A DNA stretch of 9,314 bases from Dialister sp. CAG:486 (GTDB taxonomy: Bacteria; Bacillota; Negativicutes; Veillonellales; Dialisteraceae): NCBI GenBank assembly GCA_000434475.1, contig FR879570.1, forward strand, positions 1-9,314. Reading direction: 5' to 3'. Each line of letters starts with the position of its first letter. The stretch's first letter is position 1. Of the stretch, positions 2,772 to 9,234 are shown piece after piece. Under the pieces are notes generated by a model. The model was not told the DNA's origin, did not search any database, and saw only the letters and a list, made by a program, of their open reading frames with translations. The position numbers were made by a program, and so were the translations under genes.

Positions 2772-2942
2772 GGGGAAGGTGCGGCGCATAAAATAATGAA
2801 AGCGCCGCGGAGTTTTGAAACTAGCGGTTTTCTCGTATCGCAAACCTAATCCCTAGCCACTAATCCCTAGCTACCAGTCACTAGTCACTAGTCACTAGCC
2901 ACTCATTCCTGCTTTCAAACTTCAAGGTTAGCCCGTTGAACC
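2764..2942. repeat. Short element with 11-bp terminal inverted repeats
   Basis: GGTTCAACGGG at 2764-2774 is a perfect inverted copy of CCCGTTGAACC at 2932-2942. The 179-bp interval contains a 7-bp GC hairpin (2781-2808) and a heptamer array (2845-2903). A related sequence to the left end recurs at 8004-8029. No coding capacity is visible. It may be a small non-autonomous element or a composite of unrelated repeats; without other copies the boundaries are tentative. Confidence 0.45.
2845..2903 (-). repeat. Heptamer array (TAGTGAC/TAGGGAT type)
   Basis: On the minus strand the units read TAGTGAC three times, then TGGTAGC, TAGGGAT, TAGTGGC and TAGGGAT, all in 7-base phase, with partial units at both ends. 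It is the same family as the arrays at 4406, 5873, 8228 and 9203. Confidence 0.9.
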
Positions 2943-3832: not shown

Positions 3833-4408
3833 ATGATCATCACCATCGCACGCGAGAGCGGCAGCGGCGGCTACACCGTCGGAAAGCTCCTCTCTGACTA
3901 CTATCACATTCCCGTCCACGATCAGGACAGTCTCGCCCGCCTTGCCAAAGAAAAAGGCATGTATGATGAAATGCCGGATTTCTTCCAGGAAGCCCCCGTG
4001 AACTCTATCGTTTACGCACTCTCCATGGATTTCAGAAACAAGAAATTCACTGAACCGGAGCGCAATCGCTTGGAACACCTGCTGCCGGAAAAGGACTTCA
4101 TCCTCGTCGGTCGCTGCGGAAATTACATTTTCAGAAATCATACGGGCTGCATCTCCGTTTTCATTCACGGTGACATCGACCACCGCATCCGCTACAAAGC
4201 GGATATGCTTGGCATCAGCCCCAAAGAGGCAGAGGAGATCATCCATACCAATGATGAGAATCGCCTCGCCTATCACCGCTACTACACCGGCGAGACATGG
4301 GGGGCTGCCAAAAACTATGACCTCTCCATCAATACCGCCCGCATCGGCCACGCTTTCGCTGCCGAACTGATCGAGAAATATGTGGAGAAATTGGGATTTC
4401 ATACATAG
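3833..4408 (+). CDS. Cytidylate kinase-like family protein
   Basis: This 191-residue cytoplasmic protein carries the glycine-rich nucleotide-binding loop AREsGSGGyxVGK at residues 6-18. Family signatures follow: LVGRCGNYIF at 91-100, NDENRLAYHRYYTG at 140-153 and YDLSINTA at 162-169. These match the cytidylate-kinase-like family (related to Cmk and typical of gut anaerobes) rather than housekeeping Cmk. Members are presumed nucleotide kinases, but most lack tested substrates. The start is supported by AAGGAG six bases upstream. The gene stands alone. Its TAG stop codon (4406-4408) is the first unit of a heptamer repeat array, and no clean terminator follows. Family assignment is confident; the reaction is inferred. 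Confidence 0.88.
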   Translation: MIITIARESGSGGYTVGKLLSDYYHIPVHDQDSLARLAKEKGMYDEMPDFFQEAPVNSIVYALSMDFRNKKFTEPERNRLEHLLPEKDFILVGRCGNYIFRNHTGCISVFIHGDIDHRIRYKADMLGISPKEAEEIIHTNDENRLAYHRYYTGETWGAAKNYDLSINTARIGHAFAAELIEKYVEKLGFHT

Positions 4409-4460
4409 TGCCTAGGGATTAGGGATTAGAAGTGACTAGTGGCTGGTGACTAGTGACTGG
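4406..4460 (+). repeat. Heptamer array after the kinase-like gene
   Basis: The units are TAGTGCC, TAGGGAT, TAGGGAT, a 3-base phase break, then AAGTGAC, TAGTGGC, TGGTGAC and TAGTGAC. The first TAG is the gene's stop codon. Confidence 0.9.
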
Positions 4461-4480
4461 GAGACGTCAGCCCTTCATAT

Positions 4481-4507
4481 CGTCATTTCGAGCGAAGCGA
4501 GGAATCT
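4481..4507 (+). repeat. REP-like dispersed repeat, copy 1
   Basis: The unit begins CGTCATTTCGAGCGAAGCGA and continues GGAATCT. A near-identical inverted copy is at 9118-9145. Closely similar intergenic repeats occur in many bacterial genomes. Confidence 0.75.
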
Positions 4508-4611: not shown

Positions 4612-4688
4612 CGTCATCCTGAGCGGAGTGACATGTCGGATGTTCGAAAATGTAAAGGCGGAACAGTGAAAACTGAGTCGAAGGATCT
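4612..4688 (+). repeat. REP-like repeat of a second type, split by a 49-bp insert
   Basis: CGTCATCCTGAGCGGAGT (4612-4629) and CGAAGGATCT (4679-4688) would join into a common repeat form. They are separated by 49 bases, and GAGT is present at both edges (4626-4629 and 4675-4678), as expected for a small insertion or duplication. Confidence 0.5.
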
Positions 4689-4701: not shown

Positions 4702-4736
4702 CATTTCTCATTTCTCATTTCTCATTTCTCATTCAC
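4702..4736 (+). repeat. CATTTCT heptamer array
   Basis: Four perfect CATTTCT units are followed by CATTCAC. The period is again 7 bases, but the unit differs from the TAGKGRY arrays. Confidence 0.9.
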
Positions 4737-4821: not shown

Positions 4822-5190
4822 ATGCCTTATTTATTTCAATTCGGAATGATCTTAGCCATTTCCTTTGTGGGAGAACTTCTCCATGCGCTGCTGCCGCTTC
4901 CTGTACCGGCCAGCATTTACGGGATACTGATCCTGTTTGCCCTCTTATACTTCAAGGTCATCCGTATCCCGCAGATCCGGCAGGCCTCCATGTTCCTCAT
5001 CGAGATCATGCCCATCCTCTTCCTTCCGGCCGCTGTCGGCCTCATGGACTCGTGGCACTTGATCTCCTCTACCCTTCTGCAGTACATCGTGATCACCATC
5101 CTTGCCATGGTCATCGTCATGGCAGCCGGCGGCCTTTTCACGCAGTTTATCATGAAGAAGGTCACAAGGAAGGAGACCTGCCATGAATGA
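4822..5190 (+). CDS. lrgA: LrgA/CidA family membrane protein
   Basis: This small integral membrane protein of 122 residues has four hydrophobic segments and is normal in length for the family. It carries the family motif PVPASIYG at residues 27-34 and the MPILFLPAAVGLM segment in the third helix. LrgA/CidA proteins were first described as antiholin/holin-like; later work in Bacillus subtilis (PftA) and Streptococcus mutans ties LrgAB-type pairs to pyruvate transport. It forms a complex or operon with LrgB, whose start overlaps its end by eight bases (ATGAATGA). AAAGGA six bases before the ATG supports the start. No lytSR regulator lies nearby. Family is certain; the physiological role is inferred. 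Confidence 0.92.
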   Translation: MPYLFQFGMILAISFVGELLHALLPLPVPASIYGILILFALLYFKVIRIPQIRQASMFLIEIMPILFLPAAVGLMDSWHLISSTLLQYIVITILAMVIVMAAGGLFTQFIMKKVTRKETCHE

Positions 5191-5875
5191 TTTCCTGACA
5201 CACTCCGCCTACATCTCGGTCTTCATCAGCCTCATCGCCTTTTATCTCGGCTCGAAGCTCTTTTTGAAATTTCATTTTCCCTTGTTCAATCCGCTTCTGA
5301 CCGCGGTCCTCTTGGTCATCGGCTTCCTCAAGTTGACCGGCATGGATTACAAGGACTATAACGAAGGCGCCTCCTACATCAATTACCTGCTGACGCCCTC
5401 CACCATCTGTCTCGCCGTGCCGCTCTATGAACAGATCAAGCTTTTGAAGAAAAACTATAAGGCCATCTTCCTCGGTATCCTTTCCGGCGTCGTGACAGGG
5501 CTCTTTGCCGTCTACGTCCTCTGCCTGGCCTTCGGCTTTGACCACGCTTCCTACGTGACGCTGCTTCCAAAGTCCATCACCACGGCCATCGGCATGGGAC
5601 TTTCCGAAGAGCTCGGCGGCTATGTCTCCATCACCGTCGCTGCCATCATCGCGACCGGGATCCTCGGAAATATCATCGGCGAATCCGTCTGCCGTCTCTT
5701 TCATATCACCGACCCCATCGCCCGCGGCATCGCTCTTGGCACTGCGGCACACGCGATGGGTACGGCAAAAGCCATGGAGCTTGGACCCATCGAGGGTGCC
5801 ATGTCTTCTCTCTCCATCGTAGTCGCCGGTGTTTTCACTGTCGTCTTCGCCTCCTTCTTTGCCGTGCTGATTTAG
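5183..5875 (+). CDS. lrgB: LrgB/CidB family membrane protein
   Basis: This polytopic membrane protein of 230 residues has the normal family length. Motifs include FNPLLTAVLL (35-44), LLTPSTICLAVPLY (69-82), LPKSITTAIG (128-137) and GTAAHAMGTAKAMELGPIEG (186-205). It is the partner of the upstream LrgA, translationally coupled through the eight-base overlap, with AAGGAAGGAG upstream of its ATG. Together they may export or import pyruvate or modulate autolysis, as in relatives. The TAG stop codon is the first unit of a 22-unit heptamer array, and a bidirectional terminator lies about 170 bases downstream. Codon use is GC-rich at third positions like its neighbours on the left. Confidence 0.93.
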   Translation: MNDFLTHSAYISVFISLIAFYLGSKLFLKFHFPLFNPLLTAVLLVIGFLKLTGMDYKDYNEGASYINYLLTPSTICLAVPLYEQIKLLKKNYKAIFLGILSGVVTGLFAVYVLCLAFGFDHASYVTLLPKSITTAIGMGLSEELGGYVSITVAAIIATGILGNIIGESVCRLFHITDPIARGIALGTAAHAMGTAKAMELGPIEGAMSSLSIVVAGVFTVVFASFFAVLI

Positions 5876-6026
5876 TGACTGGTGACTAGGGACTGGTGGT
5901 TAGTGGCTAGGGATTAGTGGCTAGGGATTAGGGGCTAGGGATTAGGGATTAGATGTTAGCCGTTAGATGCCTGAATCCGATGTCTGATGCCTGATGCCTG
6001 ATGTCTGAACTCTGACGTCTGCGGTC
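5873..6026 (+). repeat. Long heptamer array, 22 units in phase
   Basis: Starting with the lrgB stop codon, units run without a phase break: TAGTGAC, TGGTGAC, TAGGGAC, TGGTGGT, TAGTGGC, TAGGGAT and so on. After about unit 14 the consensus drifts to TGATGCC and TGATGTC, then TGACGTC. The first half has a strong TAG..TAG rhythm, and the drift suggests ongoing slippage and divergence. Confidence 0.92.
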
Positions 6027-6043
6027 AATCTCTCCCCGCTCTG

Positions 6044-6081
6044 AAAAAAGAGTCTGTCAAAAAGCTGACAGACTCTTTTTT
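6044..6081. terminator. Bidirectional terminator between lrgB and the ATPase gene
   Basis: AAAAAAGAGTCTGTCA pairs perfectly with TGACAGACTCTTTTTT across a 6-base loop, with A and T runs on both sides. It borders the stop codon of the convergent ATPase gene and can end both transcripts. Confidence 0.93.
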
Positions 6082-7295
6082 CATGTCCACGATTTTTCCA
6101 AAAGAAAATCGCGTATATTTCTATGCCGGATGCCATTGCGGCCACGATCAAATTCATCCAAAGAAACTACATATTTGGGATAGTTATCCCTGATCTCTTC
6201 CAATACACCGAACTCACGTTCCATTGTCTGCTCACTTGCCAAAAGATATGTCACTTGCACATAGAGTTTTTCTTTTCCGCGCGAAGCGATGAAGTCGATT
6301 TCCTTATCACCATACTTACCGACAGTCACTGCATAACCGCGGCGCAGCATTTCCAGACAGACGATATTTTCGAGTACCTGGTCGATGTCCTGCTGATTCC
6401 GTCCATATACCGCCTGTCGGATCCCATGATCCACCACGTATAGTTTTTCATTGACAGACAAAGATTTCTTACCGACCAGATCCTCCCGCTTGACTCGATA
6501 CAGAAGAAAAGCATTCTCACAGGCCTTGACATAGTTCAGGACCGTTTCATACGATGCATTTCGCTTTTCGTTTTTGAAATACTTCGTAAGACTGTTCACG
6601 CTGAAAGGATGCCCCACATTGGCCATCAGGTAAAGAACGATGCGCTCTAAAAGATCTACATCACGGATAGCATTTCGCCCGATGACGTCCTTCAGAATGA
6701 CCGAGTGATAGACGTCTCGCAGATATTGAAAAATCGCATCTTCTTCCTTTGGCAGATGAGAAAGAAATGGCATACCGCCCGTCAGCAGATAGTCCTGAAA
6801 GGCCTTCCCTTCGGAGAGGTACAGCCCCTCTTCCTGCTGCATCGCGATAAACTCTGCAAAAGAAAAAGGGTACATCACAAATTCTACATACCTTCCTGCA
6901 AGATACGTCGCCAGCTCGCCAGACAGCAGTTTCGCATTCGAGCCCGTCACATAGATGTCACAATCAAAGTCGAGTCTGAGTGAATTGATGCATCGCTGCC
7001 AATCCTCTACCTCCTGAATCTCATCGAAGAAAAAATAAAGTTTGCAGGTTTTTCCCCTCGCCCGTCGACTGATTTCTTCATGAAGTGCCAGCGCATTGCA
7101 ATATGTGCGATTCACCAGTTGTTCAAAATTAAAGGAAATCATCTGCTCATCAGAGACCCCCTGCTTTCTGAGTTCTTCCTGAATGAGCGAGAGCATGACA
7201 GACTTTCCTGAACGGCGGATGCCCGTCAGCACTTTTATGATTTCTCGTCCGATGAATGGCCGAATGCGCTTCATGTACAACTCTCTTTTTATCAT
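6081..7295 (-). CDS. AAA-family ATPase with DUF4143 domain
   Basis: This 404-residue cytoplasmic protein belongs to the AAA_14/DUF4143 group (COG1373). Walker A GIRRSGKS is at residues 25-32, Walker B LYFFFDEIQE at about 86-95, sensor-like VTGSN at about 116-120, and SGELATYLAGRYVEF carries a conserved arginine. A DUF4143 region follows, then a C-terminal nuclease-like fold with an ENIV helix, a KEIDFI strand and YVQVTY, resembling PD-(D/E)xK enzymes but with Gln where Lys is usual. An in-frame ATG at 7316 overlaps the -10 box, so I chose 7295, which has AGAGGTGA upstream. The gene is visibly more AT-rich than lrgB, and such ATPases are scattered and often multicopy in gut anaerobes, suggesting transfer. 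The cellular role of the family is unclear. Confidence 0.92.
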   Translation of the reverse strand: MIKRELYMKRIRPFIGREIIKVLTGIRRSGKSVMLSLIQEELRKQGVSDEQMISFNFEQLVNRTYCNALALHEEISRRARGKTCKLYFFFDEIQEVEDWQRCINSLRLDFDCDIYVTGSNAKLLSGELATYLAGRYVEFVMYPFSFAEFIAMQQEEGLYLSEGKAFQDYLLTGGMPFLSHLPKEEDAIFQYLRDVYHSVILKDVIGRNAIRDVDLLERIVLYLMANVGHPFSVNSLTKYFKNEKRNASYETVLNYVKACENAFLLYRVKREDLVGKKSLSVNEKLYVVDHGIRQAVYGRNQQDIDQVLENIVCLEMLRRGYAVTVGKYGDKEIDFIASRGKEKLYVQVTYLLASEQTMEREFGVLEEIRDNYPKYVVSLDEFDRGRNGIRHRNIRDFLLEKSWT

Positions 7296-7314
7296 CGTCT
7301 CACCTCTTTCTCTC

Positions 7315-7343
7315 ATTATAATTGAATAAAATGATGAAATCCA
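7315..7343 (-). promoter_or_regulatory. Probable promoter of the ATPase gene
   Basis: On the minus strand TATAAT (7315-7320) lies about 20 bases before the start codon, with a weak -35 candidate TGGATT (7338-7343) 17 bases upstream. The -35 region lies in the edge of the 44-bp palindrome, so anything bound there could control the gene. Confidence 0.55.
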
Positions 7344-7380
7344 GAAAAGTTTCGATTATAATCGAAACTTTTCTGGATTT
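7337..7380. promoter_or_regulatory. Perfect 44-bp palindrome upstream of the ATPase gene
   Basis: The left arm from 7337 (AAATCCAGAAAAGTTTCGAT) is exactly mirrored through the centre TATA to 7380. The core GATTATAATC contains TATAAT on both strands. It is placed over the ATPase promoter region and just past the end of the flavoprotein gene. It could be an operator or recognition site; as RNA it would form a 20-bp hairpin, perhaps helping to terminate the flavoprotein transcript, though no clean U tract follows. Confidence 0.85.
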
Positions 7381-8003: not shown

Positions 8004-8029
8004 AGGTTTAACAGGGAAGATGCGGCGCC
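8004..8029 (+). repeat. Related copy of the short element's left end
   Basis: AGGTTTAACAGGGAAGATGC followed by GGCGCC matches 2763-2788 at 21 of 26 positions, four of five differences being transitions. Here it abuts the MITE-like element and no matching right end is visible. Confidence 0.55.
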
Positions 8030-8195
8030 TAGGGAAACACTGATTAAATCGTTGTCAGATTTTACTCTTGAATTTTTATACATGACGAGGAATAGCCTGA
8101 CGCGAATAGCGAGCTATTTAAGGAAGGCTATGACGAAGCTATGTATAAAAATTCTTGTAAAATCTGATTCTGCGATTGAATCAGCGTTTCCCTAG
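8029..8195. mobile_element. MITE-like 167-bp imperfect palindrome
   Basis: The outer ends CTAGGGAAAC and GTTTCCCTAG are perfect inverted repeats. Further matching blocks are TCAGATTTTAC (8055-8065) with GTAAAATCTGA (8157-8167), and AATTTTTATACAT (8071-8083) with ATGTATAAAAATT (8141-8153). AATAGCGAGCTATT (8105-8118) forms a hairpin at the exact centre. It has no coding capacity, so any mobility would need a transposase from elsewhere. The CTAG at each end may be part of the element or a duplicated target. It lies between the DUF4136-like gene and the flavoprotein gene, both leftward, and its RNA would be one long hairpin. Confidence 0.7.
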
Positions 8196-8227: not shown

Positions 8228-8258
8228 TTCTGATTCCTAATCCCTAGTCACTAGTCAC
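8228..8258 (-). repeat. Heptamer array forming the 3' end of the secreted-protein gene
   Basis: On the minus strand GTGAC, TAGTGAC, TAGGGAT and TAGGAAT follow in phase. The last codons of the gene and its TAG stop are inside the array. A 20-base stretch (8228-8247) is repeated exactly at 9203-9222. Confidence 0.85.
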
Positions 8259-8951
8259 TTTCTCTTTCAGATCCTTGGCAAAGCGGTCGACGATGCGCTG
8301 ATACATCCCCTTCGGATCGTTCTCCGCATTGCGCGTGCGGTCATCCTCGCTCGAAGCGATAAGCTCGCCGCTTTCTACATCATACCATTCAAAGGTCATC
8401 GTCACCACAGCATATGGGATCTCCCGGGCAGGCACATAGTCGGGGTAGGTTTCTGTACGATAGAAATCATGCCAGTTTCCATCCTTGTCCTGATAGGAAT
8501 CCCGCACCTGAACAGATCTCCACTCCACATGCGCCGGCTCGATGTAGCTTTTCACCTGCCAGCGGGTGAGCCTGGGCAGGATGTATACCTGTGCATTCGC
8601 ACTCTTCGCAGCTTCGAAGAGATCATCCGCCTCTTCCGTCCCGCTCTCGGCCGACGCTTTCTGCACACGGGAGACAGAAAGGCTCTTTGACGCCGTCGGT
8701 GCTTCTATGGTAAGCATCACATCTTTGGGAATTTTTGATTTGTTCATGCGGCTGGCAAATGTCGTTTCCAAGCTCTTCTGTCTCGCACTGCTCAAGACGA
8801 TATCACTCATATCGACGCGGCCCACATAAATGCGACTGATCTTCGAAAAATCATAGCTCGGATCCTGCCAGCTCGTGTAGTCCGCATGGACGGGAGTAGC
8901 ACAGAAAGCGGCAGCGCAGACTGTCGCGGTGAATAACAGTTTATAGTTCAT
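8244..8951 (-). CDS. Secreted or periplasmic DUF4136-like protein
   Basis: This 235-residue protein has a typical Sec signal peptide: a short basic start (MNYK), a hydrophobic stretch and a VHA cleavage site after residue 23, with no lipobox. The mature part begins DYTSWQDPSYDFSKISRIYV, which resembles the start of DUF4136 envelope proteins. A middle region has IPKDVMLTIEAP and ANAQVYILPRLTRW, and a late region has VVTMTFEWYDVESGELIASS; this is consistent with a beta-rich domain. The start is fixed by GGAGGTGA four bases upstream. The C-terminus (KVTSD) and stop codon are encoded by a heptamer array, so the original end may have been altered. Function is unknown; it is probably in the cell envelope. 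Confidence 0.8.
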   Translation of the reverse strand: MNYKLLFTATVCAAAFCATPVHADYTSWQDPSYDFSKISRIYVGRVDMSDIVLSSARQKSLETTFASRMNKSKIPKDVMLTIEAPTASKSLSVSRVQKASAESGTEEADDLFEAAKSANAQVYILPRLTRWQVKSYIEPAHVEWRSVQVRDSYQDKDGNWHDFYRTETYPDYVPAREIPYAVVTMTFEWYDVESGELIASSEDDRTRNAENDPKGMYQRIVDRFAKDLKEKVTSD

Positions 8952-9117
8952 ACAATCACCTCCGGGGTAATAGTGTGTGTGGTTTGCGGTTTAAGGTGTA
9001 AGAGCTTCTCCGTTCGTCATCCCCAAAGAAACCACTTCCATGGGGCAGCTGAAAAGCAAAGCAATAAGGCATCGGTTACCGATACGCGCATCGCTGCAGA
9101 TCAACGCAGTGCAAGAG

Positions 9118-9145
9118 AGATTTCTCGACTTCGCTCGAAATGACG
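9118..9145 (-). repeat. REP-like dispersed repeat, copy 2
   Basis: On the minus strand it starts CGTCATTTCGAGCGAAGTCG and ends AGAAATCT, matching the copy at 4481-4507 with one inserted base and one change. A CTGC/GCAG hairpin just to its left (about 9094-9110) may belong to the same unit. Confidence 0.7.
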
Positions 9146-9202
9146 ATACGAGAGAAATGCTTGATTCAAGTATCCCGACAAATTCTACGAAAAGGGAGCA
9201 TT

Positions 9203-9234
9203 TTCTGATTCCTAATCCCTAGCCACCAGTCACT
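9203..9234 (-). repeat. Heptamer array at the right edge
   Basis: On the minus strand AGTGAC, TGGTGGC, TAGGGAT, TAGGAAT follow in phase. The end shares 20 identical bases with 8228-8247. Confidence 0.8.

Follow-up and report, generated by a model that had tools for sequence, protein, structure and literature searches.

We favour, at about even chances, reading the heptamer array at positions 5873-6026 of a 9,314-nt stretch of Dialister sp. CAG:486 DNA (the window, meaning the whole stretch analysed) as one arm of an intergenic repeat of dispersed, REP/MITE-like type; replication slippage would lengthen and shorten it in whole steps of seven bases. In a relative with a closed genome (G209), arrays of this kind have a period of strictly seven while the unit varies, lie mostly in noncoding DNA, are directional, and have dispersed repeats or an inverted partner array on their 3' side more often than controls. 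An earlier sequence-only reading of the window had drawn attention to the array and its constant phase; its picture was incomplete in that the tie to stop codons, the direction and the palindromic flanks were missing from it.

Pfam and ORF analysis identified nine genes in the window: cstA, an unknown gene, a thioredoxin gene, a cytidylate-kinase-like gene, lrgA, lrgB, an AAA/DUF4143 ATPase gene, a flavin-reductase-like gene and a second unknown gene. Between these genes or at their ends lie six period-7 arrays (2845-2903, 4406-4460, 4702-4733, 5873-6026, 8228-8259 and 9203-9234). The sequence-only reading had counted five; the four others it named are present at the places given, with lag-7 identities of 0.64-0.79 and repeats shared among them (9203-9234 is absent from the TRF rows), but the total rises to six with an extra (CATTTCT)x4.6 array at 4702-4733 detected by TRF. 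No Rfam match at gathering scores and no tRNA genes were found in the window. The features to which we refer are as follows.

5873-6026, plus strand: heptamer array of 154 nt (22 x 7), from lag scan, TRF and ORFs.
5924-5947, plus strand: G-quadruplex motif (four G3 runs, loops of 1-7) inside this array, from a motif scan; potential only.
5183-5875, plus strand: lrgB (PF04172), 5' neighbour of array 5873-6026, from ORF and Pfam.
6042-6083, no strand assigned: strong hairpin with an A run and a T run, between array 5873-6026 and the convergent AAA-ATPase gene 6081-7316, from folding.
4406-4460, plus strand: heptamer array whose first bases are the TAG stop codon of the cytidylate-kinase-like gene, from TRF, ORFs and shared repeats.
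4481-4506, plus strand: CGTC-tagged palindrome 3' of array 4406, from shared repeats.
4612-4688, plus strand: second CGTC-tagged REP-like stretch, interrupted, between the facing arrays 4406 and 4702, read from the sequence.
4702-4733, minus strand: heptamer array (CATTTCT on plus, AGAAATG on minus, x4.6) facing array 4406 across the palindromes, from TRF.
2845-2903, minus strand: heptamer array with its G-rich strand on minus, 117 bp upstream of the thioredoxin gene, from TRF, ORFs and shared repeats.
8228-8259, minus strand: heptamer array from which gene 8244-8951 (minus strand) takes its TAG stop and its C-terminal residues VTSD, from ORFs and shared repeats.
9203-9234, minus strand: heptamer array sharing 32 nt with 8228-8259 at 94% identity, from shared repeats.
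9117-9145, minus strand: CGTC-tagged REP-like palindrome about 57 bp 3' of array 9203, of the same family as 4481-4506, from shared repeats.

Identity within array 5873-6026 was 0.68 at lag 7 and 0.67 at lag 14, compared with only 0.18-0.24 at lags 5, 6, 8 and 9. In a lag-7 scan of the window the top-scoring 140 nt gave 96 matches, whereas none of 100 dinucleotide shuffles exceeded 62. Units in the first part are of TRGKGRY type (TAGTGAC, TAGTGGC, TAGGGAT), a pattern that fits the TAG-type units for the most part, and those in the last part are of TGATGYC type. The description of the array as 22 heptamers without insertion or deletion is correct as to the real period and the overall phase. At 5966-6008, however, the TRF alignment calls for 5% indels, and the TAG-type and TGATG-type halves may thus be separated by a single -1/+1 pair that compensates itself.

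The first three bases of the array are the TAG stop codon of lrgB (5873-5875). In all, three of the six window arrays reach a gene end, each time with the TAG of a unit serving as stop codon. Two frameshifted LrgB records also end in array sequence: P0168, which runs towards the array, ends LRLLLCRADLVTGD, the residues encoded by the first two window units in that frame, and P0184 ends DLGDVTRDWWLVARD, whose last 11 residues equal those of later units of the window array in another frame. The first unit of P0184 would be one base shorter than that of the window, which may reflect either a strain difference or a sequencing error; on variation in unit number between strains, such records offer a hint at most. 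Downstream, hairpin 6042-6083 is a likely two-way intrinsic terminator. In the lrgB gaps of relatives (80 loci at 37-62% identity, plus the next 17), a stricter lag scan found lag-7 blocks at only three loci (L010, L085 and L089).

Palindromes accompany several of the other window arrays. Between 4406 and 4733 the layout, like that of the inverted array pairs of G209 and other genomes described below, is an array, two CGTC-tagged palindromes and a facing array; 23 nt at 4475-4497 recur in inverted orientation at 9129-9151 (96%), and we read the palindrome at 4481-4506 as REP-like. Arrays 8228-8259 and 9203-9234 have a non-heptamer tail in common, reading ...TAGGAATCAGAA on the minus strand. 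On the 3' side of array 8228 lies a MITE-like element (8029-8195) with 23-nt terminal inverted repeats (CTAGGGAAAC...GTTTCCCTAG) that are 91% complementary and 121 nt apart; its ends resemble the TAGGGAT unit. Two further repeats were seen: a perfect palindrome with 22-nt arms and no spacer at 7337-7380, just upstream of the minus-strand AAA/DUF4143 ATPase gene, and, near array 2845, a short AGGTTCAGA-like repeat at 2736-2769 to which TRF assigned a period of 9, not 7.

The whole-genome test was carried out in G209, a single contig of 2,478,942 bases (72,000 masked), with home-made gene calls (2071 genes, 81% coding). At a looser threshold the lag scan returned 86 lag-7 arrays, all 86 of them less than half coding. 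The heptamer excess is very clean: noncoding arrays numbered zero at lags 2 to 6 and 1, 1, 2 and 3 at lags 8, 9, 10 and 11; at lags 14, 21, 28 and 35 there were 57, 36, 21 and 15. The period-7 scan with a tandem repeat finder that the sequence-only reading had proposed gave the same picture in this relative, with 62 noncoding and no coding period-7 rows, 60 of the 62 without indels, and a multiple of 7 as the best period at 94 of 143 noncoding loci. Together with the lag scan of the window, this bears out the proposed period-7 process in which phase stays constant while sequence varies. An exact 7-nt unit in excess over other periods, as seen in the window and in G209, and a dispersed, noncoding occurrence in many copies (six window arrays; 86/86 in G209) characterize heptameric simple sequence repeats of the STRR type.

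The units themselves differ. After rotation, the 86 arrays reduce to 22 consensus types; 54 belong to one related group (CGTGGCT, AGTGGCT, CGTGGTT, AGTGGTT, CGTGGGT), and others include ATGTTTG, AGTTTGT and AACGATG. TCGTGGC is the commonest unit, and the G-rich strand averages 37% G and 37% T. As several unrelated unit groups share the genome, the period is unlikely to stem from any one motif. An ordered start-to-end series of units is suggestive only: in 80 chains, position 2 was A in 44 and C in 24 first units and A in 32 and C in 48 second units, but forward and reverse unit transitions mostly balance.

The diversity of units and the mostly noncoding location are also what plain local slippage would give, in which a heptamer duplicated by chance in free intergenic DNA grows by sevens and is eroded by mutation, with the palindromes as mere neighbours. 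Seven would then be the shortest slip at which the looped-out bases escape contact with the polymerase, and polymerase slippage was already put forward in a 2007 paper, as cited in the accessible part of PMC4692102. We consider this explanation possible but doubtful, as three observations speak against it: the direction of the arrays in convergent gaps, the dispersed repeats in their 3' flanks, and the almost exclusive 3' position of inverted partners.

Placement could be scored for 82 G209 arrays, of which 30 lie in convergent gaps (39.6 kb in total), 47 in co-directional gaps (200 kb) and 5 in divergent gaps (53.8 kb). Sixty-two of the 82 were nearer to their 5'-side neighbour, compared with a mean of 40.6 and a maximum of 57 in 2000 random placements. 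Of the 30 arrays in convergent gaps, 28 had the 5' end of their G-rich strand closer to a gene than the 3' end (p = 9e-7), a direction that speaks against local slippage; 16 of these arrays start within 20 bp of a stop codon on the 5' side (median distance 3), compared with one on the other side. Between co-oriented genes, 19/25 arrays in the same direction were nearer the 5' neighbour (p = 0.015), and antisense arrays showed no direction (11/22). Many arrays follow directly on a stop codon or on the T run of a terminator-like hairpin, and TAG was the stop codon before 13 of 26 same-strand arrays (among the 30 nearest), compared with 415 of 2071 genes genome-wide. No clear replication-strand rule emerged, with the G-rich strand on the leading strand in 34/86 arrays. 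In a mixed set from other genomes, scored with crude ORFs, the 5' gene was nearer in 7/9 convergent, 6/8 sense, 5/12 antisense and 9/13 divergent cases; 11/55 arrays overlapped an ORF by half or more. Since only one of the nine convergent arrays there lay within 20 bp, close anchoring to the gene end is firmly established for G209 only.

The 3' flanks of the G209 arrays are enriched in other repeats. Non-heptamer repeats (at least three other copies) occurred in the 80-nt 3' flank of 38/55 same-strand arrays, twice as often as in controls at matched distance behind other genes (209/600; odds ratio 4.2, p = 1.5e-6), and in the 5' flank of 21/55. Arrays with an opposite-strand 5' neighbour had 3' dispersed repeats in 15/27 cases (p = 0.04). 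An inverted partner array lay within 90 nt on the 3' side of 17/86 arrays, compared with 2/86 on the 5' side and 2/86 for random noncoding positions; in other genomes the numbers were 10/54 and 1/54, where both arms of a pair can count. This asymmetry speaks against mere neighbourhood of palindromes, as local slippage would have it. One recurrent flank is a GTAG-tagged palindrome found directly behind a number of arrays. In one palindrome family with 155 copies, heptamers lay upstream of 24 and downstream of 10 copies, and most copies had no array, which counts against the element reading. The background rate computed for this comparison, and five long blocks elsewhere in the analysis, are artefacts of masked N and were set aside. 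Both flanks were more folded than random noncoding DNA, on the 5' side perhaps because of terminators. The element is often unrecognisable, since an inverted partner was present in only 17/86 arrays and 58/86 lacked any of seven hand-entered palindrome families within 60 nt on the 3' side. Any likeness to REPs (palindromes of 20-40 bp with a tetranucleotide tag, in many copies) would concern these flanking repeats and not the arrays, and any comparison of the arrays with MITEs (multicopy, with terminal inverted repeats and target-site duplications) would rest on the 17/86 with inverted partners.

Under the element reading, we infer the following course, with the window arrays presumably behaving like those of G209. 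An element with a short heptamer arm would move and settle in free DNA behind a gene. Polymerase slippage, probably assisted by the hairpin, would then add or remove single units and blocks of two to four (the lags of 14, 21 and 28), and the units would diverge through point mutation. Arrays would survive only outside coding DNA because selection would remove them from it, and an array reaching a gene end would provide that gene's final codons and its stop. The model requires no advantage for the cell. Also counting against it is that simple slippage gives no account of why periods of 8, 9 or 10 are not common too.

Arrays also occur in other members of the Negativicutes. Of 300 sampled genomes, 33 had at least three TRGKGRY units in succession; the highest number of matches in any one of them was 91 (overlapping matches are each counted, and the backward control pattern also fits some units and is thus a weak control). 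The arrays are therefore not confined to the window locus, and with 86 of them in G209 the restriction to this locus that would have spoken against the sequence-only reading does not apply. In G197, which belongs to the class of Megasphaera massiliensis (Negativicutes) and to a family represented by 12 genomes, and whose CstA, 1902-2507 protein and thioredoxin are 90%, 67% and 66% identical to those of the window, the lag-7 scan showed no array between the thioredoxin gene and the 1902-2507 orthologue; an array lies instead behind the hairpin following cstA, where gene order differs from the window. Array position is thus not always kept among relatives, as local slippage would also allow.

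Conservation was seen at one gene end. The 11 full-length homologues closest to the 8244-8951 protein are 73-97% identical to it, and ten of them have C-terminal residues that TRGKGRY units can encode, with varying tails (VTSD, VTSG, VTRD, VAGD, VAGG, VVGD), whereas the array-type tail was absent from all eight more distant full-length homologues; four fragments were not informative. The tail pattern, [VG][TAIV][SRG][DG], was derived by hand after the tails had been seen. Among 240 LrgB and kinase homologues it matched three, all of them LrgB records frameshifted towards the array.

Several further occurrences were noted. In G248, a relative in the family of G200, several array types lie within a few kb (GTTAGCC, CACGGAC, CACGAAT and GGGATTA, at L221, L230, L231 and L232), three of the four stretches having been picked because an array was present. 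At L115, L119, L123 and L124, facing array pairs are separated by a few to about 35 nt and would fold into hairpins whose stems consist of heptamers. Fifteen IMG/VR viral contigs (L297-L311; phage or host DNA) match three TAGKGAC units in a row; CstA and the 20-nt shared tail had no match among viral contigs.

The kept tail in 10/11 homologues, the placement of the G209 arrays at stop codons and behind terminator-like T runs, and the one G-quadruplex motif in the window array could instead point to a functional 3'-end element in DNA or RNA. Such an element might form a G-quadruplex, space out bound proteins, stop antisense transcripts coming from facing genes or serve as a back-up translation stop. 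We regard such a function as improbable. The unit varies, the G-quadruplex motif at 5924-5947 is the sole one in the window and thus present in only one of six arrays, G197 has no array at the one comparable gap examined, and the accessible text of PMC4692102 reports no identifiable role in gene regulation for the Xanthomonas heptamers. A back-up stop signal in all frames was rejected because tandem copies of TCGTGGC or of TCGTGGT are free of stop codons in every frame.

We give little credence to the idea that a specialised process copying seven bases at a time, linked to palindromic hairpins rather than to a motif, would build such arms in Negativicutes, Xanthomonas, cyanobacteria and Beggiatoaceae by one mechanism with a fixed 7-nt quantum. 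Very improbable is a Y1 (HUH) transposase of the RAYT type making the units by repeated cleavage at the foot of a REP hairpin: a RAYT cleaves a GTAG motif (accessible part of PMC3733652), one G209 palindrome, that lying directly behind a number of arrays, starts with GTAG and many units carry GTGG, but the window palindromes are CGTC-tagged, and PF01797 is present in only 10/33 array-bearing compared with 147/267 array-free genomes of the same sample (uncorrected for kinship), a trend in the opposite direction, so that the transposase is not required as maker; the Y1 transposase that a RAYT-mobilised REP (REPtron) calls for is thus missing from most array-bearing relatives.

Several known repeat systems resemble the arrays. 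Short tandemly repeated heptanucleotides (STRR), three of them, were reportedly described by Mazel in 1990 in one filamentous cyanobacterium, a member of another phylum. The likeness to cyanobacterial heptamers that the sequence-only reading had pointed out stands but is incomplete, as such repeats are also known from Xanthomonas, Beggiatoaceae and Bacteroidetes (PMC4692102 and PMC4679880, in their accessible parts). According to the accessible part of Rehm et al. (PMC4692102), heptamers of the form GGGAATC or GGGGA(C/T)T in Xanthomonas and Nostoc have a function given there as unknown. Like the arrays described here, they have conserved and variable positions, a G-rich strand, a noncoding bias, a position downstream of genes near or overlapping stop codons on the coding strand, and rarity between divergent genes, and they form convergent inverted pairs, with 70 cases in one Xanthomonas and few in Nostoc. 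Heptamer arrays with stop-codon overlap and inverted pairs are therefore a kind already known, as far as that text goes. It also describes one motif type per genome with a preference for four units, and generally no association with insertion sequences or transposable elements, whereas here several unrelated heptamer groups share a genome and dispersed palindromes lie on the 3' side. Four G3 runs in most arrays, which mark the Xanthomonas-type G-quadruplex heptamers, contrast with a single motif in one of six window arrays. Citing the 2007 paper, the same text mentions an excess of heptamers in bacteria, with polymerase slippage guessed as the cause.

The TAACTGA repeats of Beggiatoaceae, cyanobacteria and Bacteroidetes are mostly intergenic and patchy, and indels between two close Cyanothece strains are mostly in 7-nt steps, as stated in the accessible part of MacGregor (PMC4679880); unlike here, a single heptamer is involved, and in the main genome it lies mostly just upstream of start codons. 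For the flanks, the accessible text of Di Nocera et al. (PMC3733652) describes GTAG- and CGTC-tagged REPs which, as here, lie next to gene 3' ends in convergent and unidirectional gaps; that portion contains no mention of heptamers, Dialister, Selenomonas, Veillonell- or Negativicutes. The BrickBuilt MITE of Porphyromonas gingivalis likewise holds a tandem repeat within a dispersed inverted-repeat element, but its unit is 23 nt and it is confined to one species (PMC4596501, accessible part), and a survey of prokaryote satellites lists heptamer-derived families such as (GATAGRA)n of Chloroflexus (PMC6749651, accessible part). Among the literature matches listed, which mostly leave out subscription papers, none describes heptamer arrays in Negativicutes, and the statement that this group has no described counterpart was not contradicted. 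As far as the literature covered goes, what is new here is the lineage, the coexistence in a genome of several unit groups sharing one period, and the dispersed repeats on the 3' side. Direction and 3' palindromes give a concrete model, and the arrays lend themselves to testing why repeats of seven are so frequent in bacteria.
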